A stretch of DNA of 64,000 bases from Pigmentiphaga kullae (GTDB taxonomy: Bacteria > Pseudomonadota > Gammaproteobacteria > Burkholderiales > Burkholderiaceae_B): contig NZ_SGXC01000002.1 of assembly GCF_004216695.1 (NCBI RefSeq), forward strand, positions 806,001-870,000. The letters run 5' to 3'. Made by a program: the position numbers and the translations under genes. Shown here in pieces: positions 18,056 to 44,928 of this stretch; the first letter of the stretch is position 1, and every line of letters starts with the position of its first letter. The notes beneath the pieces were generated by a model that was given only the letters and a program-made list of their open reading frames with translations, was not told the DNA's origin and did not search any database.

Positions 18056-18147
18056 GCGCAGCTTCTGTTGCTACTGCCCCGCATGCAACGGTACACGCAA
18101 GGAATAACTTGAGTTTACCGCAGCAAATGTTAGGTAGTTGCGACAAT

Positions 18148-18232
<85 letters not shown>

Positions 18233-18303
18233 ATTCTTTGGCAGGCGCAAGCCTTCCAGGTAGTTGGAATACCCGCTCAAAGGGTTTTTAGTTGTGCAGC
18301 AGT

Positions 18304-18388
<85 letters not shown>

Positions 18389-28485: not shown

Positions 28486-29505
28486 ATGACCCAACCGCTG
28501 CACCGGCATCCCGCCGGCCTGGACACCCATCGCCGTACCCTGCTCGCGGCGCTTGCCGCCACGGGCCTGCTGGCCTGGCAGCCGGCATCCGCCCAGGATG
28601 CCGCGACCGACTTTCCGACCAAACCCATCCGGATCGTCTCCCCCCACTCGCCCGGCGGACTGGGCGATACCTTCGCCCGCTACATCGCCCAGCAGTTGTC
28701 GGCGTCCGTCGGCCAGCCGGTGATCGTGGAAAACCGCCCCGGCGCCAGCCAGACCATCGCCGCCGAAACCGTGGCCAAGGCCGCGCCCGACGGTTATACG
28801 CTGCTGATCGCCACGCAAAGCGCCATGGTGTTCAATCCGCTGCTGCGCAAGCAACTGCCCTACGATTCGCAACGGGACTTCACCCCCATCTCCATGCTGT
28901 TCGACACCCCGACCTACCTGGTGGTGAACAAGGCTCTGCCGATGCGCACGGTCGCCGACCTCATCGCGGCCGCCAAGGCCTCGCCCGGCAAGTTCACCTA
29001 TGCTTCGCTGGGCTCCGGCAGCTCGCATCATCTGCTGGCGGAAATGTTCAAGAAACAGGCCGGCGTGGACATCCTGCACGTGCCCTACAAGGGCAGCTCC
29101 AATGCCAGCACCGACCTGATCGCCGGCCAGGTCGACATGATGTTCGAAGGCGGCGCCTCGTCCCTGCCCCATGTGCGCGCCGGCAAACTCACTGCCCTGG
29201 CCACCTCGGGCGAAAAACGCACCGAGATCATGCCGGATCTGCCCACCGTGAGCGAGACGCTGCCCGGCTTCAGCGCCAACGTCTGGTTCGCCCTGTCCGG
29301 GCCGGCCGGCATGCCTGCCCCCGTCGTCGCGAAACTGAACCGCGAAGTCGTCCGCATCCTGAAGCAACCCGCCACGCACGACAAATTCGTCGACCTGGGC
29401 GTCGAACTCCTGCCCAGCACCCCCCAGGAAATGGCCGACCGCATCCGCACCGAAATCCCCGAATGGCGCGCCGTCGTCAAAGCCGCCGGCATCACCCCTG
29501 AGTAG
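28486..29505 (+). CDS. Bug-type (tripartite tricarboxylate) solute receptor
   Basis: The product has 339 residues. A signal peptide with a twin-arginine (THRRTLLAAL, about residues 15-24) is cleaved after PASAQ (about 37). The family blocks follow: KPIRIVSPHSPGGLGDTFA, VIVENRPGASQ, VPYKGSSNASTDLIAGQVD and the closing PEWRAVVKAAG. CAGGAGA lies before ATG 28486. It is 61 bp after the UbiD-type gene and probably in one operon. Its stop is followed immediately by the structured repeat element at 29511. Confidence 0.93.
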   Translation: MTQPLHRHPAGLDTHRRTLLAALAATGLLAWQPASAQDAATDFPTKPIRIVSPHSPGGLGDTFARYIAQQLSASVGQPVIVENRPGASQTIAAETVAKAAPDGYTLLIATQSAMVFNPLLRKQLPYDSQRDFTPISMLFDTPTYLVVNKALPMRTVADLIAAAKASPGKFTYASLGSGSSHHLLAEMFKKQAGVDILHVPYKGSSNASTDLIAGQVDMMFEGGASSLPHVRAGKLTALATSGEKRTEIMPDLPTVSETLPGFSANVWFALSGPAGMPAPVVAKLNREVVRILKQPATHDKFVDLGVELLPSTPQEMADRIRTEIPEWRAVVKAAGITPE

Positions 29506-29510
29506 GGGAT

Positions 29511-29835
29511 CCCCCCCTACGCGCTGACGCGCGCCCCCCAGGGGGCGGCACTGGCGGACCGGAAGGGAAGCCCACCCCCACGCCCTTCGGGCGCCCCCTC
29601 AAGGGGGCGATGCGGGTGGACCGGCAAAGCCGGATCCACCGCATCCTGGGGTACCAACGGGCTGGCGGGGACTGGCGTTCTTACCTCTTGCCAGCATAAA
29701 CAAGAACGGCCTTGCATCAGATGCAAGGCCGCTTTTCTTTCCTGAGCGTCTCCAGACCCAGGGCACAGCGGATCCGGCTCCGCCGGTCCGCCAGTGCCGC
29801 CCCCTGGGGGGCGCGCGTCAGCGCGTAGGGGGGGG
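29511..29835. repeat. Structured bimodular intergenic repeat, copy A (inverted relative to copy C)
   Basis: The 325-bp element lies between the convergent Bug gene and hflC. Both ends carry the GC-rich terminus CCCCCCTACGCGCT-x-ACGCG and its complement. A type-2 hairpin (29609-29645: GATGCG...GTGGA-CCGGC-AAA-GCCGG-A-TCCAC-CGCATC) and a type-1 hairpin (29762-29798: GGCAC...GTGCC on the minus strand) flank a central terminator (29707-29739). It is the reverse complement of copy C at 43290-43556, with local differences. The left side is chimeric: it starts like a type-1 arm and switches after GGACCGG. It encodes no protein. Confidence 0.85.
29707..29739. terminator. Bidirectional terminator inside repeat copy A
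   Basis: CGGCCTTGCAT-CAG-ATGCAAGGCCG is an 11-bp perfect stem followed by CTTTTCTTT on the plus strand, with a shorter T-containing run on the minus strand. It separates the convergent Bug and hflC genes. Confidence 0.88.
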
Positions 29836-30708
29836 TCAATTCACAGCCGGCGATTTCATGAAGCGGAAGAAGTCGGAGCTCGGGTCTACCACCAGCATGT
29901 CGGACTTCGAGCCGAACGAGCTGCGGTAGGCTTCCAGGCTCTTGTAGAAGCGGTAGAACTCGCGGTCCTGGCCAAAGGCTTGGGCGTAGACGGCGGAGGC
30001 CTTGGCGTCGCCCTCGCCCTTGACTTCCTGGGCCTTGCGATAGGCTTCGGCCAGGATGACTTCGCGCTGGCGGTCGGCGTCGGCGCGGATCTTCTCGCCT
30101 TCGGCGGCGCCGATGGAGCGCTGCTCGTTGGCCACGCGCTTGCGCTCGGCTTCCATCCGGCGGTAGACCGACTCGGAAATCTCGGGCACGAAGTCCACGC
30201 GCTTCAGGCGCACGTCCACGATCTCCACGCCCAGCAGCTTGGCCGCGGCCTCGGTGTTGGTGCGGATCTCCTGCATGATCTTGTCACGCTCCTTGGAGGT
30301 GACGTCGTTCACGGTGCGGCGGTTGATCGAGGCGTTCAGGGCATCGCGGATCAGGGCCAGCAGGCGCTCCTGCGCCGCGCGTTCGTTGCCGCCGAAGGTG
30401 ACGTAATAGGTGCGCGGATTGGAAATGCGCCACTTCACGAAAGCGTCGATCAGCAGGTTCTTCTTTTCCGAGGTCTGCACCCGCTCGCTGTCGGCCGAGT
30501 CGATGGTCAGGATGCGCTTGTCGAACTGCTGCACGTTCTGGAACGGCGGCGGCAGCTTGAAATACAAGCCGGGTTCGTCGATGACTTCCTTGATTTCACC
30601 CAGGGCGAAGACGACGGCATAGTTGCGTTCGTTGACCACGAACACGCACGACGACAATACGGCCACCCCCACGAGCAGACCGATTACCGCAGGAATCAAA
30701 CGGTCCAT
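29836..30708 (-). CDS. hflC: HflC, membrane regulator of FtsH
   Basis: This 290-residue SPFH/prohibitin-family protein has one N-terminal transmembrane segment (about residues 5-24, IPAVIGLLVGVAVLSSCVFV) and a periplasmic SPFH domain. A long charged coiled coil (about 180-240, RRMEAERKRVANEQ onward) follows. With HflK it forms the large complex that encloses and modulates the FtsH protease. It starts 15 bp after hflK, so the two are cotranslated. Its stop touches repeat copy A. Confidence 0.97.
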   Translation of the reverse strand: MDRLIPAVIGLLVGVAVLSSCVFVVNERNYAVVFALGEIKEVIDEPGLYFKLPPPFQNVQQFDKRILTIDSADSERVQTSEKKNLLIDAFVKWRISNPRTYYVTFGGNERAAQERLLALIRDALNASINRRTVNDVTSKERDKIMQEIRTNTEAAAKLLGVEIVDVRLKRVDFVPEISESVYRRMEAERKRVANEQRSIGAAEGEKIRADADRQREVILAEAYRKAQEVKGEGDAKASAVYAQAFGQDREFYRFYKSLEAYRSSFGSKSDMLVVDPSSDFFRFMKSPAVN

Positions 30709-30723
30709 GTCATTCCTTCTTGA

Positions 30724-32031
30724 TTATCTGTTGCGGTCCCGCGAGCGCAGGGCGTCGCGTCCGGCTTCCGGCAGCACGCTGCCGGCCAGCGGCGGCGGCA
30801 CGTTGACCGACGAGGAACCGCCCGCGGCGGACGGCGAGCGCGCCCCGGCCGCGGATTCCTGCGACACTTGCTGCATCAGCTTGTCCAGCGGCAGGTACAG
30901 CAGATTGCTGCCGTTGCGCGTATCGACCAGCACCTTCGAGGTGTTGGTGAAGACCTGCTGCATGGTCTCGAGGTAGAGGCGGTCGCGCGTGACCTGCGGC
31001 GCCTTCTTGTACTCGGTCAGCACCTGCGAGAAGCGCGCGGCGTCACCCTCGGCGCTTTCGACGATGCGCTGACGGTAGGCCTCGGCCTCCTGGACCAGGC
31101 GCGACGCGGCGCCCGAGGCACGGGGAACCACGTCGTTGGCGTAGGCCTGGCCTTCGTTGATCTGGCGCTCGCGGTCCTGGCCGGCCTTGACCGCATCGTC
31201 GAACGCGGCCTGCACCTGCTCGGGCGGCTGGGCGTTCTGGATCGCCACCGTGCTGATCAGCACGCCGGTGCGGTACAAGTCCATGATCTGCTGCATCAGC
31301 GCCGCCACTTCCGTGGCGACTTCCGTACGCCCCTCGTACAGCACGAAGTCCATCTTCTTCTTGCCGACGATCTCGCGCATGGCGGTCTCGGCGGCCTGCT
31401 TGACGGCTTCGTCCGGGCCACGGTTGTTGAAGAGATAGTCGCGCGCGCCCGTTTCCTTCAGGCGATACTGGACCACGAACTGCATGTCGACGATGTTCTC
31501 GTCGTCGGTCAGCATCAGGGACTCCTGCAACACCTTGCTGCGCGAGGTATTGCGGAAGCCCACCTCGATGGTGCGCAGCTGCGAGAGGTTGACGGTCTCG
31601 TGGCTCTGGATGGGATACGGCAGGCGCCACTGGAAGCCGGCCCGCGTGGTTTCCTTGTACTTGCCGAACTGCGTGATGACCGCGACCTGCCCTTCCTGCA
31701 CGATGAAGAAGCCGGAGGCCAGCCACAGCAGGGCCACCACCACCACGACAACCAGCAGGCCGACGCCGGTGCCGCGCGAGGACGGCGAAAAACGGCCACC
31801 GCCGTTGTTGCCGCCGCCGGGAGGGCCCGAGGGCTTGCGGCCGAACAGTCCGCTCAGCCGGCGGTTGAAGTCGCGCCACAACTCGTCGAGATCGGGCGGT
31901 CCGCCGTTATTGTTGTCCCGTCCGTCGTTCTGCGGACGCCGGGGAGGCTCGTTGCCGGAGCCACCGCCGCTTCCGCGGCCCCAGTTCGAGTCGTTCAGAT
32001 TGAATATTCGAGTTATCGCAGGCAGACGCAT
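30724..32031 (-). CDS. hflK: HflK, membrane regulator of FtsH
   Basis: The 435-residue protein has a disordered Gly/Asn/Pro-rich N-terminus (about 13-85, GRGSGGGSGNEPPRRPQNDG), a transmembrane segment (about 88-110, GVGLLVVVVVVALLWLASGFF) and the SPFH domain. A coiled coil and a Ser/Pro tail follow. It is the partner of HflC. The gene follows hflX by 38 bp in the hfq-hflX-hflK-hflC order seen across proteobacteria. Confidence 0.97.
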   Translation of the reverse strand: MRLPAITRIFNLNDSNWGRGSGGGSGNEPPRRPQNDGRDNNNGGPPDLDELWRDFNRRLSGLFGRKPSGPPGGGNNGGGRFSPSSRGTGVGLLVVVVVVALLWLASGFFIVQEGQVAVITQFGKYKETTRAGFQWRLPYPIQSHETVNLSQLRTIEVGFRNTSRSKVLQESLMLTDDENIVDMQFVVQYRLKETGARDYLFNNRGPDEAVKQAAETAMREIVGKKKMDFVLYEGRTEVATEVAALMQQIMDLYRTGVLISTVAIQNAQPPEQVQAAFDDAVKAGQDRERQINEGQAYANDVVPRASGAASRLVQEAEAYRQRIVESAEGDAARFSQVLTEYKKAPQVTRDRLYLETMQQVFTNTSKVLVDTRNGSNLLYLPLDKLMQQVSQESAAGARSPSAAGGSSSVNVPPPLAGSVLPEAGRDALRSRDRNR

Positions 32032-32069
32032 CTTTGTAATAAGCGAAGCGGACGGGCCGAACCCGTCGC

Positions 32070-33221
32070 CTAGGATCGGGCGTCAGCCGTGGGGCCGACG
32101 GACGAAGACAGCGTACGAAAGCGTGGGTCGCTACTATTATTACCTGGGACCACGGGATCTGCTTGTCCGGCCTCGACGATGGCACCCCGCAGTGCATCCA
32201 GGCCGGTACGCTCGATCGCGCTGACGAACACTCGCGAGATCGTACCATGCTCGTCGCGCTCGACTCCGGCCTCGTGGCTGCTGCGGTCGATCTTGTTGTA
32301 GACCAGGATGCGGGGAATGTCCGCCGCCCCGATTTCTTCCAGGACCTTGTCCACCTCGGCGATCTGTTCGTCGCGCTGGGGGCTGGATGCGTCCACGACA
32401 TGCAGCAGCAGGTCGGCGTGCACGGTTTCCTCGAGCGTGGCCTTGAACGCGGCGATGAGCGTATGCGGCAGCTCGCGGATGAAACCCACCGTGTCGGACA
32501 CGACGACCGAGCCCGCCCCTTCGATCCAGATGCGCCGGGTCGTGGTGTCCAGCGTGGCGAAGAGCTGGTCGGCCGCGTAGACGTCGGCGCGGGTAAGCGC
32601 GTTGAACAGCGTGGACTTGCCGGCGTTGGTGTAGCCCACCAGCGAGACCGACAGCGCCCCGCCCCGCGCGCGCGAGCGGCGCTGGGTCTGGCGCTGGCGT
32701 TCGAGCTTGTCCAGGCGCTCGCGCAGGTAGCGGACCTTGTCGCCGATCATGCGGCGGTCCATTTCCAGCTGCGATTCACCCGGGCCCCGCATGCCTATGC
32801 CGCCGCGCTGGCGCTCCAGGTGGGACCACATCCGGGTCAGGCGCGTGGCCAGATGCTGCAGTTGGGCCAGCTCGACCTGGAGCTTGCCCTCGTGGCTATG
32901 CGCGCGCAGCGCGAAGATGTCCAGGATGAGCGCGACCCGATCGACCACCCGTATCTTCAGGGCGCGTTCGAGGTTGCGCTGCTGGGCGGGCGTCAGGTTG
33001 TGGTTGAACAGGATGATCTCGGCCTGGCCGGCCTCGGCCGCCAGCCCGATTTCTTCCACCTTACCCGACCCCACGAAGAGCGCCGCATCCGGACGCGCCC
33101 GTCGGGCAATGATGGTATCGACGATCTGCGCGCCGGCCCCTTTGGCCAGCATGATGAATTCGTCGGTCTGGGCCTGGAACTCGGGCTCGCCGAAATCCAC
33201 GCTGACGATCAGCGCGCGCAT
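32070..33221 (-). CDS. hflX: GTPase HflX
   Basis: This 383-residue ribosome-splitting GTPase has an N-terminal nucleotide-binding-like domain (LFVGSGKVEEI, GRGPGE-like RGPGESQLE) and a coiled coil (about 160-180). The G domain has P-loop GYTNAGKST (about 195-203), the DTVGFI switch II and NKID. ATG 33221 (MRALIVSVDFG) fits homologous starts. A TTG at 33275 would run into hfq and is not needed. The last 25 residues are a low-complexity tail. Confidence 0.95.
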   Translation of the reverse strand: MRALIVSVDFGEPEFQAQTDEFIMLAKGAGAQIVDTIIARRARPDAALFVGSGKVEEIGLAAEAGQAEIILFNHNLTPAQQRNLERALKIRVVDRVALILDIFALRAHSHEGKLQVELAQLQHLATRLTRMWSHLERQRGGIGMRGPGESQLEMDRRMIGDKVRYLRERLDKLERQRQTQRRSRARGGALSVSLVGYTNAGKSTLFNALTRADVYAADQLFATLDTTTRRIWIEGAGSVVVSDTVGFIRELPHTLIAAFKATLEETVHADLLLHVVDASSPQRDEQIAEVDKVLEEIGAADIPRILVYNKIDRSSHEAGVERDEHGTISRVFVSAIERTGLDALRGAIVEAGQADPVVPGNNSSDPRFRTLSSSVGPTADARS

Positions 33222-33255
33222 CAGCGGCCCGTGGTTCTGCCCGGTAGGCGTGGTA

Positions 33256-33492
33256 TTAGTCTGCAGCTGCTTCAACCTGGAAATTGACCGGACGCGACGG
33301 CACGACGGTCGAAATGGCGTGTTTGTAGACCATTTGCGTCACGGTGTTGCGCAGCAGGACCACGTACTGATCGAAGGATTCGATCTGGCCTTGCAGCTTG
33401 ATGCCGTTGACGAGGTAAATGGAGACGGGTACGTGCTCTTTACGCAGAACGTTAAGGAACGGGTCTTGTAGCAATTGCCCTTTATTGCTCAT
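33256..33492 (-). CDS. hfq: RNA chaperone Hfq
   Basis: The 78-residue Sm-like protein forms a hexamer that pairs small RNAs with mRNAs. Sm1 (about 8-50: [29 protein letters not shown]) and Sm2 with [13 protein letters not shown] (about 54-66) are complete. The start MSNKGQ at 33492 has CCAGGAG upstream; the longer frame to 33531 is not supported. The C-terminal tail is short (about 10 residues), as in other betaproteobacteria. Confidence 0.98.
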
Positions 33493-33665
33493 TAGTGGGC
33501 TCCTGGATGTGTTTTTCTTGGCGGATGCCAACTCTGTTACTGTACCGGGTTTTCCCGAGGGAAACTAGCGAATCTCAAAACTGAGAGAGAGACCGCTTTT
33601 TTCCCCAAATCCCATGTGGGGACGCGGTTGCATTCCCACAAGGGCACACCCCGGAAGATACTCGG

Positions 33666-35072
33666 TTACCCCGCCTTGTCGAGATAAGGATTCCTCGAGT
33701 TTCTGAACTCGATCTTCAATGGAGTGCCCTCGAGCCGGAAAGTTTCCCGGAACCGGGTTTCGAGGAACCTGCGATACGAATCGGGAATCTCGTCCAGCGC
33801 GCTGCCGTGGACCACGATCAGGGGCGGGTTCTGGCCGCCCTGGTGCGCATAGCGCAGCTTGGGCCGGAAAATGCCCTTGCGCGGCGGCTGCTGCTGCTCG
33901 ACCGCGGCCTGCAGCGCGCGGGTCAGCTTGGGCGTGGACAGCTTGGCGAAGGCCGCCGCGTGGGCCGACTCGATGGATTTGAGCAGCGGGCCGATGCCCG
34001 CGCCGCGCAGCGCCGAAACGGTATGCATTTTGGCGAACGACAGGAAGCGCAGCTTGCGCTCGAACTCGCGCTTGATCTCGTCGCGGCGTTCGCTGTCGGC
34101 GCGGTCCCACTTGTTGATAGCCACCACCAGCGCGCGCCCGGTCTCCAGCACGAAGCCGGCGATGTGGGCGTCCTGCTCGGAGATTTCCGCGCTGGCGTCC
34201 AGCATCAGCAGCACGACGTTGCTGGCCTCGATCGCCTGCAGCGTCTTGATGACCGAGAATTTCTCGATCGCCTCGAACACCTTGCCGCGCTTGCGCAGCC
34301 CGGCGGTGTCGATCAGGGTGTAGCGGCGCCCGCCGCGCTCGAATTCGATCTCGATGGCGTCGCGGGTGGTGCCGGGCTGGTCGAAGGCGATGACCCGCTC
34401 TTCGCCCAGCAGCGTGTTCACGAGCGTGGACTTGCCGACGTTCGGGCGGCCGACGATGGCGAGCTTGATGCGGTGGTCGATGGCGTCGACAGGCGAGAAG
34501 GCGTCCTCGTCCGTACCGTCGGCGGTTTCGGCGGCTTCGTCTTCGTCCGCCTCGGGCGGGGTTTCGACCAGGCCTTGCAGCGCCTCTTCGATCATGTCCA
34601 CCACGCCGTCGCCATGGGCCGACGAGATCGCGTGCGGTTCGCCCAGGCCCAGTTCGTAGAACTCGGCCGCGGCGGTGGCGCGCGACATGCCCTCGACCTT
34701 GTTGACCGCCAACAGCACCTTGCGGCCGGAACGGCGCAGGCGCTCGGCAATCTCGCGGTCATGGCCGGTCAGGCCCACGCGGCCGTCGGTCAGGAACACG
34801 ATGGCGTCGGCCTCGTCCACCGCCTGCACGGTCTGCTTGGCCATCTCGGCCATGATGCCGTTCTTGGCCACCGGCTCGAAACCGCCGGTGTCCACGACGA
34901 TGAAGGGATGATCCCCCACCCTGCCCTCGCCATAGTGGCGATCGCGCGTCAGCCCGGGAAAATCGGCCACGAGCGCGTCGCGCGAGCGGGTCAGCCGGTT
35001 GAACAACGTGGATTTGCCCACGTTGGGCCGTCCCACCAGGACGACCACCGGTTTGAAGACTGCGGGTTTCAT
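33666..35072 (-). CDS. der: Ribosome-assembly GTPase Der (EngA)
   Basis: The product has 468 residues with two tandem G domains, each with GRPNVGKST (about residues 11-19 and 201-209), and a C-terminal KH-like domain. It acts in 50S subunit maturation. [14 protein letters not shown] (35072) is chosen as start; MSVNEQGF at 35102 would overlap bamB and adds no conserved residues. An acidic linker (about 165-190) joins the G domains. The 173 bp to hfq contain short dyads but no convincing T-tailed terminator. Confidence 0.97.
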
Positions 35073-35088
35073 CGTCGAAAAGCCTTGC

Positions 35089-36267
35089 TCATTGACCGAC
35101 ATTGATCAGGGTCAGATTACCCCTGGAAGTCTGCACCAGAACCCCACGGTCGGTCGCCACGGGCTGGGAAAGGATGGCGCTGCCGTCGGTGGCGATGCGC
35201 GCCAGCAGGGTTCCATCCTCGCGCTGCAGGAAATGCACGTAGCCCTGGTAGTCGCCCAGGGCGATGGCGCGGCCCACCGAGGCCGGCGCGGTCAGGCCGC
35301 GGTTCTGCAGAACGTCCTGCTTCCAGATGTTCGCGCCGCTGTCCAGGGCGAAGCCGAAGACCACGCTGCGGTCGTTCGGCGCATAGGCGAAGCGCACGTC
35401 GGCGGTCAGGCCCGTCACGCTGGAGAATTCGCGCGACCAGGTGGAATTGCCCGAGCCCACGTCGAAGCAGTTGATGCGCCCCTGGTAGGTGACGGCGCAC
35501 AACTGGCGGCCCGAGATGACGGGCGCGCCGACCACGTCGGCCACGCGCTCGAGCTCGCTGGCGCCGCTGGGATTGGCGACCGTGCCCTCCCAGCGCACCG
35601 CGCCGGTGTTGGTGGCGATGGCGATCAGCTTGCCGCCCGGCAGGCCGGTGAAGATATAGCCGCCGGACAGCAGCATTTCGCCCGGCGCGCGCAGGGCCAG
35701 GGCCGGCCCCGGACGCTGCACGCTCCAGCGGCGCTTGCCGCTTTCGGCGTCGTATGCCTGGATGCGATAGTCGCCGCTGCGCACCACCACCAGACCCTCG
35801 CCCACCAGGGGCGGAACCGTGATCTCGCTGGAAGCCTGGGCCCGCCACTTGATGGCGCCGGTATCGTCGAAGGCGATCACTTCGCCGCGCGGCGTCGCGA
35901 CCGCCGTCACGCGGCCGTCGCTGCCCACGCCCGCCGACAGGTCGGCCTTGGCCGACGAGCGCCAGATCTCGGCGCCGGTGGCCAGCGCATACTTGCCGAC
36001 CGAACCGTTGCCCGTGGCGGCGTAGACGGCGTCGCCGACGACCACGGGTACGAACCCCACGCCGCCCTTGCTGCCCACCGATACCGACCAGCCGCTGCTG
36101 ACCGGCAGCGTGGCGTTGAAATTCGTGAGCGGGGCCGGCGGATAGCGCGGTTTCTCGCTCGAAAACAGGGAACATCCGCCCAGCGCGAGCACGGCCGCCA
36201 CCGCGGCGGCACGACGCAGGTGGCGCCAGCCCAGGCGCTCGCCGGTAAAGCCGTTATGCAACGTCAT
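35089..36267 (-). CDS. bamB: Outer-membrane assembly lipoprotein BamB
   Basis: The 392-residue lipoprotein of the BAM complex has a signal with lipobox LGGC (Cys32). The rest is an eight-bladed PQQ-like beta-propeller with repeated blade motifs such as [17 protein letters not shown]. It sits on the periplasmic face of the outer membrane and helps BamA insert barrels. Its ATG overlaps the yfgM stop by ATGA, and der follows by 16 bp. Confidence 0.96.
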
Positions 36268-36899
36268 CAAGCGCCTCCCAGGGCATCGAGTTTCAGTTGG
36301 ATGGACGAGCGCAGGTCGGTCGATGCGTCGAGCTTGGCCAGCGCCTCTTCATAGGCCTTGCGCGCCTCGTCCCGCTTGCCCTGCCCGGCCAGCACGTCGC
36401 CACGGCGGTCGGCGTACAAGGCCACGAAGGGTGCGGGCGGCTGCGGCGCCAGCACACCCAGCGCCTCGTCATAGCTTTTCTCGTCCAGCAGCAGGCCCGC
36501 CAGCCGCAGGCGCGCCACGGCGGCCAGGGCCTCGTCGCCGCTACGGTCGGCCACCCATTGCAACTGGGCGCGGGCCGAGCGGGTGTCGCCGGCCTTTTCA
36601 TAGGCATGGGCGGCCAGCAGCGCGGCGCGCGGGGCGTAGCCCGTGCCGGAATACTGTTCCAGGATGGTGCCGGCGGTGTCCTTTACGCGGCTCAGGTCGC
36701 CGGCCTCGGCAGCCTTCTCCAGCGCCTCGAACTGGGCCAGCGCGTTCGCGGCCTGGTTGCGCTGGTACCACTGCCAGCCGTTCCAGGCCGCCGCGGCCAG
36801 CAGCACGATGGTCGCCACGGCAAGGATGAAGTTTCCGTACTTCGCCCACCATGCCTTGAGGGATTCCAGTTGTTCCTGTTCTTCGATGTCGTAGGCCAT
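36267..36899 (-). CDS. yfgM: YfgM-like TPR protein, ancillary SecYEG subunit
   Basis: The product has 210 residues with the family start MAYDIEEQEQLESLKAWWAKYGN. A single transmembrane helix (about 24-43, FILAVATIVLLAAAAWNGWQW) precedes periplasmic TPR-like helices. YfgM associates with SecYEG and PpiD in E. coli and helps hand over envelope proteins. The position between hisS and bamB is conserved. The 124 bp upstream, toward hisS, contain a GC-rich dyad without a T tract. Confidence 0.93.
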   Translation of the reverse strand: MAYDIEEQEQLESLKAWWAKYGNFILAVATIVLLAAAAWNGWQWYQRNQAANALAQFEALEKAAEAGDLSRVKDTAGTILEQYSGTGYAPRAALLAAHAYEKAGDTRSARAQLQWVADRSGDEALAAVARLRLAGLLLDEKSYDEALGVLAPQPPAPFVALYADRRGDVLAGQGKRDEARKAYEEALAKLDASTDLRSSIQLKLDALGGA

Positions 36900-37023
36900 T
36901 TATGCCCCGGTTGATGTGGTGATCGCAAGAGTTGTGGCGGGCCGGCCGGCGGCCCGCGCGGACTCCGAGAGCCGCAAGATTAACGGATTCGGCGCCGATT
37001 CGTATCCAGGCCCGGGCGCACGG

Positions 37024-38319
37024 CTATTCAGGGCCGCCCGTCCGGACCAGTTCTTCCACCAGGAAAGCCGGCAGCTCGGCCATGGCGACGCGGCGCTGGG
37101 CCACGCCCTCGGCCCGCAGCGCCTTGACGCTGGCCGCGCCTTCGGCCAGCTCGTCCTCGCCCAGGATGACGGCGTATTCCGCCCCGCAGCCGTCGGCGCG
37201 CTTCATCTGCGACTTGAAGCTGCCGCCGCCGCAGTGCAGGACGACGTCCAGGCCGGCGTCGCGCAGGTCTTCGGCCAGCCGCATCGCCGCGCGCGCGGCG
37301 GGCTCGCCCTGGTGCAACACATAGACGTCGCACTCGGGTTGCGGTTCCGCAGGCTGTGCCTGGGACCACAGGTCCAGCAGGCGCTCGACGCCGATGGCAA
37401 AACCCACCGCCGGCGTCGGCTTGCCGCCCAGCAGCGAGACCAGGCCGTCGTAGCGGCCACCGCCGCAAACCGTGCCCTGGGCGCCCAGGCGATCGGTCAC
37501 CCACTCGAACACGGTCAGGTTGTAGTAATCGAGGCCCCGCACCAGCCGGGGGTTCACCCGGTAGGCGATGCCCGCGTCCTCGAGCCGCTGGCGCACGCCG
37601 TCGAAATGGGCCAGCGAGGCCTCGCCCAGATAGTCCAGCAGGCGCGGCGCGTTGTCGGCCATTTCCTGCAGCGCGGGGTTCTTGGTATCCAGGACGCGCA
37701 GCGGATTCGTATAGAGCCGGCGCTGGCCGTCCTCGTCCAGTTGGTCCTTGAACCCTTCCAGGTAGGTGATCAGGGCCTGCCGGTGCGCCAGGCGCTCCTC
37801 GGCGGAGCCCAGGGAATTGATCTCCAGCCGGATGTCCGCCAGCCCCAGGATCTTCCAGAGTCGTGCCAGCATGAGGATCAGCTCGACGTCGACGTCCGGG
37901 CCGGCGAAGCCCAGGGCTTCCACGTCGATCTGGTGGAACTGGCGGTAGCGGCCGCGCTGCGGACGCTCGTGGCGGAACACGGGCCCGATCGCGAACACGC
38001 GCTGGGGCCGGTCGTAGGTCAGGTTGTGCTCGATCGTGGCGCGCACCATGCCTGCGGTGAACTCGGGGCGCATCGTCAGCGACTCGCCGTTCAGCGAATC
38101 GGTGAAGCTGTACATCTCTTTCTCGACGATATCGGTGACTTCGCCGATCCCGCGCGTGAACAGCCGGGTCTGCTCCAGCACCGGCGTGCGCAGGTTGCGG
38201 TAGCCGTAGCTGCGCAGCCATTCGCGCACCAGCGATTCCAGCCGCTCCCACTGGCCCGAATCGGCCGGCAGGATGTCGTTCATGCCGCGGATCGCGGTCA
38301 CTTTCTTGAAGCTATTCAT
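37024..38319 (-). CDS. hisS: Histidyl-tRNA synthetase
   Basis: This 431-residue class II synthetase has motif 1 and 2 regions ([12 protein letters not shown] at 10-21; [20 protein letters not shown] at about 111-130) and the His-specific block [16 protein letters not shown] (about 258-273). An anticodon-binding C-terminal domain follows. It should not be confused with hisZ at 25320, which lacks parts of these motifs. The start codon is seven bases downstream of repeat copy B, so the repeat lies in its leader. Confidence 0.98.
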
Positions 38320-38325
38320 TTAGGT

Positions 38326-38417
38326 CCCCCCCCTACGCGCTTCGCGCGCCCCCTGGGGGGGCGGCACTGGCGGACCGGCGGAGCCGGATCCGCTGCGCCC
38401 TGGAGTGGCGTCCAGGG
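38326..38417. repeat. Structured intergenic repeat, single-arm copy B
   Basis: Between ispG and hisS lies one type-1 arm of the repeat: terminus CCCCCCCTACGCGCT, then the hairpin at 38363-38399 (GGCAC-TG-GCGGA-CCGGC-GGA-GCCGG-A-TCCGC-T-GCGCC). It is followed by a local perfect hairpin CCCTGGA-GTGGCG-TCCAGGG (38398-38417). The outer pair A-T of copies A and C is A-C here, one unpaired position. It lacks the central terminator, as expected inside an operon. Confidence 0.82.
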
Positions 38418-38436
38418 CCTGTTAGGGGTGTAAAGG

Positions 38437-39723
38437 TTATCTCTTGCTGTAGCGGTTCTCGACGTAAGCTTCCACTAGGGCCTGGAACTCCCGGGCGATG
38501 TGCTCGCCCTTGAGCGTGACCGAGCGCTGGCCGTCGATGAAGACCGGCGCGACCGGCTGCTCGCCCGTGCCGGGCAGGCTGATGCCGATGTCCGCGAACT
38601 TGCTTTCGCCCGGGCCGTTTACCACGCAGCCCATTACCGCGACGTGCAGGTTCTCGGCCCCCGGATACTTCAGGCGCCAGACGGGCATCTGCGCCCGCAG
38701 GTAGCTCTGGATGTCGGCCGCCAGTTCCTGGAACACCGTGCTGCTGGTACGGCCGCAGCCCGGACAGGCGACGACCACCGGCGCGAACGCGCGCAGCCCC
38801 AGGCTTTGCAGGATTTCCTGCGCCACCACTACCTCGCGGGCACGGTCGCCGTTGGGCTCGGGCGTGAGCGACACGCGTATCGTGTCGCCGATGCCCTCCT
38901 GCAGCAGGATGCCCATCGCGGCGGTCGAGGCCACGATGCCCTTGCTGCCCATGCCCGCCTCGGTCAGCCCCAGGTGCAGCGGGTAGTCGCAGCGGCGGGA
39001 GATGTCGCGGTAGACCGCGATCAGGTCCTGGGCGTTGCTGACCTTGCACGACAGGATGATGCGGTCGCCCGGCAGCCCCAGTTCCTCGGCGCGCCGGGCA
39101 TTGTCGATCGCCGACACCACCAGCGCGTCGCGCATGACGGACTGGGCGTCCCAGGGCCGCGCCCGCCGACCGTTCTCGTCCATCATGCGGGCCAGCAGGT
39201 CCTGGTCCAGGCTGCCCCAGTTCACGCCTATGCGCACCGGCTTCCCGTGGCGGCAGGCCACCTCGATCATCTGCGCGAAATTGTCGTCGCGCTTCTTCCC
39301 GGCACCCATGTTGCCGGGGTTGATGCGGTACTTGGACAGCGCCTGCGCGCACTCCGGGTACTGGGTCAGCAGCTTGTGGCCGTTGTAGTGGAAGTCGCCC
39401 ACCAGCGGCGCCTCGACGCCCATGCGGTCGAGCTGCTCGCGTATCGCGGGCACCTCGCGGGCGGCCTCGGCCGTATTCACGGTGATCCGCACGACCTCGG
39501 AGCCGGCCAGGGCCAGTTCCTTGACCTGGATCGCGGTGGCGATGGCATCGGCCGTGTCCGTGTTGGTCATGGACTGGACCATGACCGGCGCATCGCCGCC
39601 AACGGCGACCGACTTGCCGCCCCATTCGATGCGCACCTGGCGCGTGGGCCGGCGGACCGCCGGGCCGGCGGGGAACGGCTCGGCCTCGGAAACGTTGGCG
39701 GTCGTGGACGGGCTAGGATTCAT
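38437..39723 (-). CDS. ispG: 4-hydroxy-3-methylbut-2-enyl diphosphate synthase (flavodoxin)
   Basis: This 428-residue 4Fe-4S enzyme of the MEP isoprenoid pathway has an N-terminal TIM barrel ([13 protein letters not shown], about 47-59). The C-terminal cluster domain has [20 protein letters not shown] and [11 protein letters not shown], which supply the three cysteine ligands. It is eight bases downstream of rodZ on the same strand, as in most proteobacteria. Confidence 0.97.
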
Positions 39724-39730
39724 GATGCGG

Positions 39731-40645
39731 CTACTGGAGGGTGAGCCGGGCGACGTTGTCCCGGCGATACGGCGCGAGGTCGACAGGCGCGCCGCGCCAG
39801 GTCAAGTCTACCCCGCTGACGTTGCCGATCACGACACGGTACGGCGCGCCCGCCACATCCAGTTCGTAGGGCTCGCCGGCGGGAATGATCCGCGACACGG
39901 CCACGGTACCGTCGGCGCGCCGCACTTCGACCCAGCTTGCCTGCCGCATCGTGATGGACAGGCCGGGCGCCGGAGCGGGGGCAGCCGCCGCAGGCGGCTC
40001 GGGAGCCGGCGCGGGCGCGATGGGCGCGGGCGCCGCCGGCGTGATTTCCGCCGGAACGGCAGGCGCCGGCTCGGCCGGGGCCAGCGGCGCTTCGGTCTGG
40101 ACCGAGGTCGTGCCGCCCGCCGGCGTATCCAGGCTGGCCGTGGAGGCCTGCCCGAACGACAGCTTGCCTTGCTGGCTGAGCGCGTAGCCCAGCAGGACCA
40201 GCGCCGCCACCGCCATCACGCCGCCGACCAGCCAGGGAGCCAGCCGCCTGCGGCTGGCGGCCACCGGCCAGGCCCGGCCCGACGAATGCGCCAGCGGGCT
40301 GGACAGCGACGAGGCCTGTTCCAGCGATACCGGATCGGCCACCTGCAACTGGGGCGACAGCGCCTGCAGCATCGGCGCCGGATCCTGGTCCAGCAGCCGC
40401 GCGTAGTTGCGCACGAAACCGCGCAGCGGCATGCCCTGCGGCAGTTCGCTCCACTGTTCGTTCTCGAGCGCGCGGATCTGGCGCACGGCGAACTTCAGGC
40501 GGTCGGACACATATTCCTGCGACCAGCCGCGCGCCTCTCGCAGGCGCGCCAGTTCCCGGCCGACCGACGACGAAGACGGCGAGCCGGCGGTGGGCGCCGG
40601 GCCCTCCTGCCTGCCGGCGGCACCGGTTTCGTGGGGTTCAGACAT
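39731..40645 (-). CDS. rodZ: RodZ-like cytoskeletal membrane protein
   Basis: The product has 304 residues. A cytoplasmic helix-turn-helix (about 27-95, [20 protein letters not shown]) precedes a single transmembrane helix (about 136-157). A long Ala/Pro repeat linker (about 180-225) and a periplasmic DUF4115 domain follow. RodZ connects MreB to the envelope and sets rod shape. AAGGAG precedes ATG 40645. The pilF gene that often lies between rlmN and rodZ is absent; the gap is only 54 bp. Confidence 0.9.
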
Positions 40646-40699
40646 CGACGACTCCTTGTCCGGCCCTGCCGAAACGGCCGGCCCGGCACCGCGGTTGCC

Positions 40700-41914
40700 T
40701 CATTCGCGCACCTCCACGATACGGCCGAAGCGGGTCTCGCCCGCCAGGCGCTCCTTCAGCCGGGTGCGATCCTTGACCTCGCCGGCCAACTGCCCGCAGG
40801 CCGCGTCGATGTCGTCGCCGCGCGTCTTGCGCACGGTGGTGACGATACCGGCGTCCATCAGGCGCTGCGCGAACAGCCGGACCCGGGCCATGGGCGAACG
40901 CTTGAGCCCGGACTGCGGGAAGGGATTGAACGGAATGAGGTTGAACTTGCACGACACCTGCCGCGCAATGTCTATCAATTGCTTGGCATGCTCGTCGCCA
41001 TCGTTGATGCCGTCGAGCATGACGTATTCGAACGTGATGAAATCGCGCGGGGCGAACTCCAGGTAGCGCTGGCACGCCGCGATCAGTTCCCGCAGCGGAT
41101 ACTTGCGGTTCAGCGGCACCAGGTCGTCGCGCAGCGCATCGTTGGGCGCGTGCAGCGACACCGCCAGCGCGACCGGACAGTCGCGCGAAAGACGGTCCAT
41201 CATGGGCACCACGCCAGAGGTCGATACCGTGACCCGGCGGCGCGACAGGCCATAGGCATTGTCGTCCAGCATCAGCCGCAGCGCCGACACCGTATTGTCG
41301 TAGTTGAGCAGGGGTTCGCCCATGCCCATCATGACGACGTTGCTGATGACCCGGTCGTCCTGGGTGCCCAGCGGCGCGGGCATGCCGCCCGACAGGCGCG
41401 CGCCGTCGCGGTCGGCCTCGACCGTGCGGCGGGCCAGCCATAGCTGGCCGATGATCTCGTCCACCCCCAGGTTGCGGTTGAAGCCCTGGTGGCCGGTGGA
41501 GCAGAAGCGGCAGGCGACGGTGCAGCCCGCCTGCGTCGAGATGCACAGCGTGCCGCGGTCGTCCTCGGGGATGAAGACGGTTTCGATGGCATTGCCGTTG
41601 CCGACGTCGAGCAGCCACTTGCGCGTGCCGTCGGCCGACTTGTGGGCGGTGACGACCTCGGGCAGCCGGATCTCGCACTGCCGCGCGAGCTTCTCGCGGA
41701 AGGACTTGGCCAGATCCGACATCTGCTCGAAATCGTCCACGCCGCGCTGGTGCAGCCAGCGCTGCAGCTGCTTCGCGCGGAACGGCTTGTCCCCCCATTT
41801 TTCCACCAGCGAGGCGAGCTCGGCCCCGTTCAGCCCCAGCAGGTTGATGCGCGGGGTTTCGGAACGTGGAGCCTCGGCCGGGGCGGCTTCGGCGAGCGGC
41901 GAGATAGTGTTCAT
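40700..41914 (-). CDS. rlmN: Dual-specificity RNA methyltransferase RlmN
   Basis: This 404-residue radical SAM enzyme makes m2A in 23S rRNA and some tRNAs. The cluster motif C-x3-C-x2-C is seen in [12 protein letters not shown] (about 133-144). [11 protein letters not shown] (about 193-203) and the catalytic cysteine region near [14 protein letters not shown] at the C-terminus are intact. A 20-residue Ala/Glu/Pro N-terminal extension is unusual but harmless. The gene is preceded by ndk, 32 bp away. Confidence 0.97.
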
Positions 41915-41946
41915 CCCGGCCTCCTGGGAAAAACGGACATCCAGGC

Positions 41947-42372
41947 TCAGCGGCTGTGGATGTTCAGTTCGGGGAAGAAGAAGGCGACTTCGACCTTGGC
42001 GGTCTCGACGGCGTCCGAGCCGTGCACGGCGTTGGCGTCGATGCTGTCGGCGAAATCGGCGCGGATCGTGCCTTTCTCGGCCTTCTTCGGATCGGTCGCG
42101 CCCATCAGGTCGCGGTTCTTCTGGATGGCGTTCTCGCCTTCCAGGACTTGCACGAACACGGGACCGGAGACCATGAAGTCGACCAGGTCCTTGAAGAACG
42201 GGCGCGCGGCGTGCACGGCATAGAAGCGCTCGGCGTCGCTGCGCGAGAGCTGCATCATGCGCGCGGCGATGACCTTGAGGCCGGCCGCCTCGAAACGGGA
42301 AACGATCTGGCCGATGACGTTCTTGGAAACGGCGTCCGGCTTGATGATCGACAGGGTGCGCTCGATAGCCAT
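41947..42372 (-). CDS. ndk: Nucleoside diphosphate kinase
   Basis: The 141-residue enzyme transfers phosphate between nucleotides via a phosphohistidine. [15 protein letters not shown] and the active-site [12 protein letters not shown] (His at about residue 117) are present, and length is exact. ATG 42372 is preferred over a start four codons upstream because of homology. An AT-rich 60-bp stretch upstream (42373-42430) probably contains its promoter. Confidence 0.98.
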
Positions 42373-42515
42373 CAAAAACTCCAATAAAAACAGATACTTT
42401 GAGGGGAACTTAAACGTTAAATTGTATCATGGCTCCTTGACGGGACCGCTACCCCCACCACCCCGGACGTACCGTGCCCGCCCTACTGGAACCGGGCGGA
42501 ACCCTGCGGCATACT

Positions 42516-42532
42516 TGGTGTCAGACACACCA
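42516..42532. promoter_or_regulatory. Inverted repeat upstream of the Bax-inhibitor gene
   Basis: TGGTGT-CAGAC-ACACCA is a perfect 6-bp dyad with a five-base spacer, 51 bp before ATG 42583. It has no T tract, so an operator or start-region hairpin is more likely than a terminator. The protein that would bind is unknown. Confidence 0.4.
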
Positions 42533-42582
42533 TGCCCTCGCGGGGCGAAACAGAGCAAAAGACCACAAGGAGTCGCTCGACC

Positions 42583-43284
42583 ATGAACGATCTACGCACT
42601 TCTCCCTTCAACCGGACCGGGACTGCGCCCGGCGAGGTCGCGCGCAATCGCGTACTGCGCAATACCTACTGGCTGCTCGCGCTGTCGCTGATCCCCACCG
42701 TGCTGGGCGCGGCGATCGGCGTCGGCACCGGCCTCGCCCAGGTCATGGGCGGCAGCCCCGGGCTGACCACCATGGCGTTCCTGATCGGCGCCTTCGGCCT
42801 GATGTTCGCCATCCAGAAGAACAAGGACAACGGACTGGGCGTCGCCCTGCTGCTGGTCTTCACCTTCTTCATGGGGCTGATGCTGTCCCGCATGATCGGC
42901 TTCGTCATGGGCATGGCCAACGGTTCCACGCTCATCATGACGGCATTCGGCGGCACGGCCGTGGTGTTCGGCACCATGGCCCTGCTGTCCACCACGATCA
43001 AGCGCGACCTGTCGGGCCTGGGCAAGTGGCTGTTCGTCGGCGCCATCCTGATTCTCGTGGCGGCCCTGGCCAACATCTTCCTGCAGCTGCCGGCGCTGAT
43101 GCTGACCATCTCGGTCCTGGCCATCGGCATCTTCTCGGCCTTCATGCTGGTCGATCTGCAACGCGTCGTCAACGGCGGCGAGACCAACTATGTCTCGGCC
43201 ACCCTGGCGATCTACCTGGATATCTACAACGTCTTCGTGAACCTGTTGATGCTCCTGGGCATCTTCGGCGGAGAACGAGAGTAG
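42583..43284 (+). CDS. Bax inhibitor-1/YccA family membrane protein
   Basis: The 233-residue inner-membrane protein has seven hydrophobic segments after an about 35-residue cytoplasmic N-terminus. The conserved end region DIYNVFVNLLMLLGIFGG (about 213-230) is typical of the family. E. coli YccA is a substrate and modulator of FtsH, which fits its position near hflKC, although transcription is divergent. ATG 42583 (MNDLRTSPFN) follows a weak AAGGAG. It ends just before repeat copy C. Confidence 0.92.
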   Translation: MNDLRTSPFNRTGTAPGEVARNRVLRNTYWLLALSLIPTVLGAAIGVGTGLAQVMGGSPGLTTMAFLIGAFGLMFAIQKNKDNGLGVALLLVFTFFMGLMLSRMIGFVMGMANGSTLIMTAFGGTAVVFGTMALLSTTIKRDLSGLGKWLFVGAILILVAALANIFLQLPALMLTISVLAIGIFSAFMLVDLQRVVNGGETNYVSATLAIYLDIYNVFVNLLMLLGIFGGERE

Positions 43285-43289
43285 TAGAG

Positions 43290-43556
43290 CCCCCCCTACG
43301 CGCTTACGCGCGCCCCCCAGGGGGCGGCACTGGCGGACCGGCGGAGCCGGATCCGCTGTGCCCTGGGTCTGGAGACGCTCAGGAAAGAAAAACGGCCTTG
43401 CTTGACGCAAGGCCGTTTTCATTTTCAACCCAACCGGATGCCAGGCAGTATCGCCAGTCCCCGCCAGCCCGTTGTTACCCCAGGATGCGGTGGATCCGGC
43501 TCTGCCGGTCCACCCGCATCGCCCCCTGGGGGGCGCGCGTAAGCGCGTAGGGGGGG
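43290..43556. repeat. Structured bimodular intergenic repeat, copy C
   Basis: This 267-bp element fills the gap between the convergent Bax-inhibitor gene and rlmD. It has termini CCCCCCTACGCGCTTACGCG and the complement at the right end. A type-1 hairpin lies at 43326-43362 (GGCAC...GTGCC around CCGGC-GGA-GCCGG), a terminator at 43389-43419 and a type-2 hairpin at 43484-43520 (GATGCG...CGCATC around CCGGC/GCCGG). It matches copy A in reverse complement over most of its length, including CGCCAGTCCCCGCCAGCCCG. It is non-coding. Confidence 0.88.
43389..43419. terminator. Bidirectional terminator inside repeat copy C
   Basis: AAAACGGCCTTGC-TTGAC-GCAAGGCCGTTTT is a perfect 13-bp stem with A and T runs on both flanks, so it terminates both the Bax-inhibitor gene and rlmD. 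Confidence 0.95.
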
Positions 43557-43557
43557 A

Positions 43558-44928
43558 TTATTCCAACACTGCGATGGACTCGACGTGGGCGGTGTGGGGG
43601 AACATGTTGACCACGCCCGCCGCCTTCAAGGTATAGCCGCCCTCGTGCACGAGGATGGCGGCGTCGCGGGCCAGGGTGGCGGGGTTACAGGAGACGTAGA
43701 CGATACGCCGGGGGCGGTCGGCCCCTAGTGTCGTCAGGGCCTTGGCCACGGCCAGGGCGCCTTCGCGCGGGGGGTCGATCAGCATGCGGTCGAAGCGGCC
43801 CAGGCTGCGCAGCCAGGTCTCGTCCACCTCGAACAGGTTCAGGGTCGAGAATGCCGTATGCGCGTCCACGCCGTGCCGGCGGGCCGCTTCCAGCGCCCGG
43901 TCGGTCAGGGCCTGGCTGCCCTCCACGCCCACGACCTCGCGGCAGCGGGTCGCCAGCGCCAGCGTGAAATTGCCCAGGCCGCAGAACAGGTCGGCCACGC
44001 GGTCCCCGGGTTGGGGCTCGAGCAGCGCGAGCGCGCGCGACACCAGCACCCGGTTGATCGCGTGGTTGACCTGGGTGAAGTCGGTGGGCTTGAACGGCAT
44101 GCGCAACCCGAACTCCGGCAGCGTATAGGCCAGTCCGTCGACGTCCTGGGGCTCCAGCGGGTGCACCGTGTCGGGTCCCTTGGGCTGCAGCCACCAATGG
44201 ATGTCGTGCCGCGCCGCGAACGCGCGCAGCACGGCCAGGTCTTCGTCGACCAGCGGGATCAGGTGGCGCAGCACCAGCACGACCTGGCTGTCGCCCACGG
44301 CGACCTCGATCTGCGGCACGCGGTCGCGCGCGGGCATGGCCGCGACCATCTCGCGCAGGGGCACCAGCAGCGAGGCCACGTGCGGATGCAGCACGTGGCA
44401 TTCGCGCATGTCGGCCACATAGCTGCTCTTGCGTTCGCGGAACCCCACCAGCACCCCGCCCTTCTTGACGACCACGCGGACCGACAGCCGCGCGCGGTAG
44501 CGGTAGCCCCAGGCCGGTCCGTGGATGGGCGGCAGGACGCGCTGCGGCACCAGCTTGCCGATGTGCCACAGCGTGTCTTCCAGCACGCGCTGCTTGATCG
44601 CGACCTGCGCGGCCGGATCCATGTGCTGCATGGCACAGCCGCCGCACACGCCGAAATGCGCGCAGCGCGGCGCCACGCGCTGCGACGACGCCTGCACCAC
44701 GTGCTCGACTTCCGCCAGTTCGTAGGAAGGCTTGCGCTTGGTCACCTTCAGCATCACGCGTTCGCCGGGCAGCGCGCCGTCGACGAACACCACCTTGCCC
44801 TGGCGGCGCGCGATGCCGCGCCCTTCCAGGTCCACCGATTCGATGGCCACGGAACCGTCGTCGAATTCGACGGCAACAGCCGTCCCTTCCAGGCCGTCCG
44901 CGGCCGCAATGTCTGCTTCTTGACTCAT
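43558..44928 (-). CDS. rlmD: 23S rRNA (uracil-1939-C5)-methyltransferase RlmD
   Basis: The 456-residue SAM enzyme has a TRAM domain (about residues 20-80) and the 4Fe-4S cysteines in [15 protein letters not shown] (about 92-106). The methyltransferase domain has [14 protein letters not shown] (about 316-329), and the catalytic cysteine lies in [12 protein letters not shown]. The start [11 protein letters not shown] (44928) is used; a longer frame adds Arg/Pro-rich sequence without homology. The stop abuts repeat copy C. Confidence 0.95.

Follow-up and report, generated by a model that had tools for sequence, protein, structure and literature searches.

What is the task of a structured repeat that stands three times between the genes of a single 64,000-nt stretch of DNA? 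The stretch (positions 806001-870000 of its contig; hereafter the window) belongs to the 6.22-Mb genome of Pigmentiphaga kullae, of the Alcaligenaceae, and the three copies, A, B and C, are indeed present where a preliminary description of this DNA had placed them. That description saw in them a possible insulator, or an element possibly mobilised like REPINs (inverted pairs of repetitive extragenic palindromic, REP, units) and bacterial interspersed mosaic elements (BIMEs). It overlooked what we find to be the dominant regularity of the family, a fixed place in sense orientation right behind stop codons. This placement suggests that the repeat units act on mRNA ends rather than being mere debris of jumping DNA.

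The unit of the repeat, which we call an arm, is about 81 nt long. It begins with a C-tract and the letters CTAC. Three hairpins come next: the small H1 (GCGC..GCGC), then H2 (CCCCC..GGGGG) and finally the long H3, which contains the core CCGGC-N3-GCCGG and one bulged A. The preliminary description defined the element by this core, which is too weak a definition: the bare pattern occurs at 529 sites in the genome, against 414 for the same pattern read backwards. A DNA search of the genome with copy C gave at least 104 matches (40 of 225 first-look candidates being scored), and a covariance model, R1, built from 43 arms of the genome itself finds at least 150 arms there, with an E-value of 2.7e-11 for the weakest among the matches listed. 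The count of three copies therefore has to be given up, and the further genomic copies that the description proposed to look for do exist. We analysed the best 150 arms by score, which lie in 113 stretches. These stretches hold 192 full or partial arms in 141 clusters, 101 of them solo and 40 with at least two arms, where solo means no second match at E 1e-3 within 400 nt, so that some solos are pairs with one decayed arm.

Covariation supports the maintenance of the hairpins that the description supposed. In the 43 aligned arms of the genome 98.7% of the cells pair, 9 of the 26 pairs have changes on both sides, and none of 500 shuffles reaches the values for cells paired, pairs, cells or score. 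In an alignment of 80 arms, other genera included, 96.8% of the cells pair and both sides vary in 13 of the 21 pairs tested; the covariation score of 0.317 compares with a mean of 0.121 after shuffling and with at most 0.079 after sliding, and the pair types are matched by 1 of 500 shuffles. H2 was omitted from the 80-arm test, since its columns shift by one between genera, and all these values are to be read with the limits that related copies are not independent and that the structure was drawn on the same sequences. RNAalifold, given the 80-arm alignment, predicts H1, H2 and H3. Variants of the H3 base include GGCAC/GTGCC, GATGC/GCATC, GAAAC/GTTTC, GGTGC/GCACC, GTTGC/GCAAC and GGGAC/GTCCC. 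The bulged A is retained in 43 of 43 aligned arms, hence the stems are not simply perfected palindromes. We rejected a CsrA-type GGA loop, because the H3 loop varies (GGA, AAA, AGA, GAA, CAA and others). No T-run of an intrinsic terminator is found in the arms themselves; a stem with a T-run is found in the centre of A by a terminator scan and in that of C by eye.

Where do the arms stand? Genes were taken from a codon-based predictor trained for this analysis, which agrees with the separately read genes of the window. Among the 192 matches, 164 are full arms with enough flank, and 159 are left when five that overlap a predicted gene are set aside. The gene upstream of the C-tract is sense in 121 of the 159 and antisense in 38, and 106 of the 121 lie at most 10 nt from the stop codon (arms with the stop inside included), at a median of 2 nt. 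Solo arms in co-directional gaps are sense in 66 cases and antisense in 17 (p 5.6e-8). As many as 60 of these 66 either begin no further than 10 nt behind the stop or enclose it; uniform placement would put 9.1 of them there on average and 22 at the most. Nine enclose the stop, which the uniform-placement null does not model; without them the figures are 51 of 57 within 10 nt against 6.9 expected and a maximum of 16 in 10000 placements. Just one of the 66 lies 15-60 nt after the stop. Counted by genes, a sense arm follows 121 of the 425 stops in the stretches. Convergent gaps account for 34 of the 135 gaps with arms and 21 of the 266 without, divergent gaps for 6 of 135 and 46 of 266. The stops differ as well: TAG is commoner at arms (48/121 versus 67/304 other stops) and TGA rarer (51/121 versus 187/304).

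Thirteen of the 20 convergent pairs reach, on either side, to within 10 nt of the stop or beyond it; in co-directional pairs the sense end is so placed in 12 of 17, and the antisense ends are separated from the next gene by 6 to 1160 nt. In 17 of the 121 cases the stop is a TGA or TAG inside the arm, and 13 of the 17 proteins that stop there end in PPTR or PPTP, so that the C-terminal residues of some proteins (17 genes in the stretches) are encoded by a shared element. The loci concerned (L numbers denote loci and G numbers genomes; 17 predicted proteins) are L150, L156, L183, L187, L194, L195, L223, L225, L231, L232, L234, L237, L238, L248, L256 and L261.

Is this address kept elsewhere? With strict filters R1 finds arms in at least 26 of 151 genomes of the family (own included) and at least 8 of 43 genera, and no arm in the same-genus genome G135. 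In the order, arms occur in 8 of 250 genomes (own included), four of them outside the family, and at the loci of these four, inspection by eye places an arm about 10 nt or less from a stop codon. By the bamB product the closest loci are those of the metagenome-assembled genome (MAG) 'Burkholderiales bacterium 67-32' (99%), Pigmentiphaga sp. NML030171 (98%) and 'Alcaligenaceae bacterium SAGV5' (97%), followed by Pigmentiphaga sp. NML080357 (91%), a Pigmentiphaga MAG (85%), P. humi (82%) and P. litoralis (73%). Of 30 genomes behind named loci 9 have arms and 21 have none. The numbers are at least 150 in each of G151-G154 and G156 (P. humi), 43 in P. litoralis (G157), 5 in a Pigmentiphaga MAG, 26 in Bordetella sp. 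BOR01 and 57 in Verticiella. After removal of 12 duplicates, the first arm behind a sense gene lies within 10 nt of the stop in 19 of 20 cases at the loci of G151-G154 and G156, the stretches of G151 and G156 having been picked for their high-scoring arms, and in 34 of 39 at the remaining loci (P. litoralis, others of the genus, other genera). An antisense upstream gene was met in 7 further cases at the close-relative loci and 6 further at the remaining ones. P. litoralis and G005 also carry arms in tandem, and the first unit of such arrays follows the stop at a distance of 1-3 nt in L269, L286 and L338 and of 41 nt in L130. The arrays at G005:C1:3180375-3180716 (units of about 86 bp) and G157:C1:1390186-1390506 (about 80 bp) are possible variable-number loci.

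Between close species the sites are stable, and the arm that occupies them changes at some. Comparison with G151, the genome of L039, gave 32 rows, of which L158 and L227 were left out as unreliable; an arm is also present at 30 of the 30 reliable sites, and at 6 of them a pair faces a single arm (by eye). In P. humi an arm is found at 9 of 16 compared sites and none at 7, one of the seven (L219 first) being weakly aligned but counted. P. humi has a different GC-rich palindromic insert and another gene end (L366:12248-12581) at the site of our cluster L195. Elsewhere a further GC-rich repeat (GCGGCAGCCCCCC..GGGGGC..CGCCTTGGGGCGG) is joined to hairpins of arms or lies next to their centres (L207:617-665, L260:47-98, right flanks of L152 and L239), as though it had taken the place of the arm's outer end. 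At 14 solo sites shared with G151 the orthologous arms have a median identity of 96.2%, against 85.5% (median of means) to paralogues. At four shared sites, however, the identity is only 81.0, 81.0, 86.2 and 88.8%, and 33 to 114 paralogues are closer, while the flanks of these four sites are 93-99% identical. In one of our loci, L159, the stop codon differs (TGA versus TAA) and H1 and H3 have been replaced by others that also pair.

The copies of the window are given in the table below.

Table. Copies A, B and C of the repeat in the window and their parts
Feature	Position	Strand	Neighbouring genes or basis
Copy A, full paired element, almost from stop to stop	29509..29837		Bug/TctC-type receptor gene (+, 28486-29505) / hflC (-, 29836-30708)
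A: truncated outer type-1 half-arm, ends CCGGAAG; then AAGGGAAG	29511..29562	+	
A: inner type-2 arm, complete	29573..29650	+	
A: central terminator-like hairpin	29705..29733		automatic terminator scan, both strands
A: type-1 arm, sense to hflC	29758..29836	-	
Copy B: one type-1 arm between the minus-strand genes ispG and hisS, antisense to them	38327..38404	+	
Copy C: full paired element	43288..43558		Bax-inhibitor-1-type gene (+, ends 43284) / rlmD (-, ends 43558)
C: type-1 arm, sense to upstream gene	43288..43366	+	
C: central hairpin AACGGCCTTGC..GCAAGGCCGTT, T-runs on both strands	43391..43417		by eye
C: type-2 arm, sense to rlmD	43479..43558	-	

The outer ends of A, B and C read CCCCCCTACGCGCT in five of five cases. 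Copy C consists of a type-1 arm, a centre with a terminator-like hairpin and an inverted type-2 arm, and copy A is the same element inverted: 29723-29837 is complementary to 43287-43401 at 97%, and 29591-29686 to 43443-43538 at 91%. The preliminary description was correct in regarding A and C as complete, mutually inverted and each placed between convergent genes. For A this holds of the paired element, outside whose type-2 arm there is also the truncated half-arm that the description did not separate. The central terminator-like hairpin of A is flagged on both strands; that of C is absent from the output of the automatic scan and is read by eye only. The stems of both types pair as described, the sole exception being one A-C mismatch in B. 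Copy B has one arm only and lies between genes of the same direction; its C-tract faces the start of hisS, hence it is antisense. The minus-strand G-run of this arm sits a few nt before the hisS start codon (38300-38335) and may serve hisS as a ribosome-binding site; a G-rich run at this place is kept in relatives even where the arm is degraded (by eye).

The three sites have histories of their own, read by eye in the relatives. At site B, L041 and L044 keep a sense arm after ispG, L042 has both arms, and L039, L040 and our genome have the antisense one. At site A, L039 has the element in the opposite orientation to that in L040, L041 and our genome. At site C a plain terminator-like hairpin stands instead in P. 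litoralis (L045) and in L056. Rfam covariance models find only two tRNAs in the window at gathering scores, and no match at the elements up to E 1; the two tandem tRNA genes (18139-18232 and 18295-18388) are 94% identical over 94 nt.

Are we dealing with a selfish element? The arms may be a non-autonomous element of REPIN or MITE (miniature inverted-repeat transposable element) type, moved in trans, whose insertions near stops were targeted or are the sole survivors and whose hairpins matter as DNA. In our opinion this is rather unlikely, but several observations favour it. In 38 of 40 multi-arm clusters the arms are inverted with their C-tracts outward (two are mixed), so the REPIN-like paired architecture of the preliminary description stands, spacer included; MITEs, too, share terminal inverted repeats with the arm pairs. 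The lengths of close plus-minus pairs among the best 150 arms are discrete: 205-209 (4), 237 (1), 248-253 (12) and 270-271 (2). By eye, 17 of the 40 centres are of 87-90 nt, with CTAG.. ends that are mostly complementary, 11 are of 44-46 nt with one hairpin, 7 (A and C included) hold a terminator hairpin and 5 are other. Solo arms often retain the first part of such centres, as decayed pairs would, and the seven P. humi sites without an arm also fit this explanation. Against it, the REP-associated tyrosine transposase (RAYT) domain Y1_Tnp (PF01797) has no match in our genome and is absent from 20 of 22 other arm-bearing genome records, being present in G141 and G158 (the 22 records amount to about 19 genomes, as G043, G073 and G050 look identical to G154, G151 and G159, with equal match coordinates). 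Because of this absence, membership in the RAYT-REPIN system is not supported, and the link to a RAYT that was to be checked falls away. Most Pigmentiphaga arms have CTAC, the reverse complement of GTAG, next to H1, and in other genera many arms carry other letters there (by eye); in RAYT-associated REPs the GTAG tag is on the side opposite to the arm's CTAC. No target-site duplication is evident by eye in the flanks of pairs and of the sites compared with P. humi. A gene-carrying parent element is ruled against by the four intervals between a plus and the next minus arm (400-5000 nt, within stretches), which hold ordinary genes (by eye). Further, the arms at all reliable G151 sites mean that no fresh insertion is seen, and survival alone leaves unexplained why a single sense solo arm of 66 lies 15-60 nt behind a stop.

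The insulator of the preliminary description, or a bidirectional terminator between convergent genes, would agree with the scan result at the centre of A, with the 20 of 38 classified pairs that lie between convergent genes and with the plain hairpin that replaces the element at site C. It fits, at most, the class with a central terminator, which makes up only about 7 of 40 multi-arm clusters (by eye), whereas at 83 of the 138 classified sites a lone arm stands in a co-directional gap, and the arms lack a T-run of their own. As an explanation of the family we consider it improbable. We regard it as more improbable still that the arms are precursors of small RNAs derived from 3' untranslated regions, by analogy with the bprJ region of Bordetella pertussis, which contains a repeat called BRE. 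Transcripts have been detected from that region with its 85-bp repeat (Hot et al. 2011, PMC3110155); but BRE is likened to the arm by its description, and the arms are known here from sequence.

The reading we prefer, with about an even chance of being right, is that of a structured RNA module of mRNA 3' ends, spread as cassettes or by conversion. On the sense strand the arm would form the very start of the 3' untranslated region: the C-tract of about 7 nt would be an unpaired spacer behind the stop, followed by two small hairpins and a long one. Judged from the distances, about 8-19 nt would separate the stop from the first stem and bring that stem near the front of a terminating ribosome. 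The sense place tied to the stop, kept across genera, and this spacer point to RNA, and to translation termination or mRNA 3' ends. Most probably the arm would work as an RNA cap, both as a barrier to 3'-5' exonucleases and as a modulator of termination or what follows, re-initiation or transcription; E. coli REPs that lie no more than 15 nt from stop codons are comparable. In convergent gaps two arms face each other around a centre, to which the class of A and C would add an intrinsic terminator. The arms could have spread as inverted pairs, by ectopic conversion between copies or both, in any case without a RAYT. More tentatively, and in our opinion with somewhat less than an even chance, one may think of a 'stop-codon cap' throughout the Burkholderiales, in which the address, right behind the stop codon or providing it, is conserved over long times and the filler exchanged between sites as a self-pairing block, structure and position being selected and sequence free. 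Its target would be the terminating ribosome or the end of the mRNA.

Several points weigh against the RNA module. The structure, covariation, address, sense bias, site stability and occupant exchange are established; RNA as the acting form and each function named are what we infer. A DNA cruciform would give equal pairing. Given the replacement of whole arms, part of the covariation is block exchange and not independent compensation, and in our own genome the further pair types are matched by 236 of 500 shuffles. In genes with the stop inside the arm the ribosome would unfold H1. Seventeen of the 83 solo arms in co-directional gaps, including B, run antisense, and 7 full arms occupy divergent gaps. 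The address counts depend on gene calls of a home-made codon predictor and on the best 150 arms by score. Finally, stable stem-loops of all bacteria favour convergent gaps and the 50 bp after stops (Petrillo et al. 2006, PMC1590033); therefore part of the positional bias of the arms is a generic preference of stem-loops.

The functions of REP-like repeats have long been disputed. With at least 150 arms in a genome, strong covariation and 60 of 66 sense solo arms at the stop, the choice between selfish DNA and a device of mRNA ends becomes directly testable. If the 'stop-codon cap' is true, it would act on at least a hundred genes at once.

How much of this was known? That such hairpins prefer 3' ends is already known in general. 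A literature search, which covered few subscription papers and went into the text only of those cited here, returned no report of the module, of an address within a few nt of the stop, of pairs and centres or of occupant exchange, and among sequence words of the arm only one generic word was matched. Judged by their descriptions, the Bor repeats and BRE of Bordetella are probably relatives of the arm. Bor are hairpins of 26-30 bp near coding regions, likened to REPs and proposed to stabilise mRNA (PMC1590033), and Bor-1 is intergenic and structured, with 93-117 bp and 128-196 copies (Cozzuto et al. 2008, PMC2267715); by size and place, H3 could be the 26-30-bp Bor. Neither description, in its accessible part, includes a stop distance of a few nt, a module of three hairpins, pairs or centres. 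BRE measures 75-91 bp, is mostly intergenic in Bordetella and other betaproteobacteria and is tandem at some loci (PMC3110155). The arms likewise measure about 80-86 bp, are present in a Bordetella species and form tandem arrays in some genomes, but their set means of 75.0-79.0% GC lie above the BRE mean of 69.0%, and the BRE description, as available, gives no stop-codon address. Beside lexA (BRE locus 3) no confident arm is found in 23 genomes, not known to include the species of Hot et al.; there is one weak partial match (L292, E 0.029).

REPINs and BIMEs with a RAYT are described as inverted doublets with a spacer, singlets that are decayed doublets, and tandem clusters (Bertels and Rainey 2011, PMC3116915). 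The arms resemble them in all three respects, but differ in their length of about 80 nt with three hairpins, in the fixed place after the stop and in a RAYT that is mostly missing. A study of E. coli REPs near stops is reportedly that of Liang, Rudd and Deutscher in 2015. In a further report (the RepRanger paper, PMC12306157), 446 of 4072 E. coli REPs are given as lying within 15 nt of a stop, against 260 of 496 in an earlier study, and REP hairpins so placed are reported to stall ribosomes. Both these E. coli REPs and the arms are hairpins close to stop codons; unlike those REPs, the arms form a module of three hairpins, and nearly all of their sense solo copies stand within 10 nt of the stop or enclose it.

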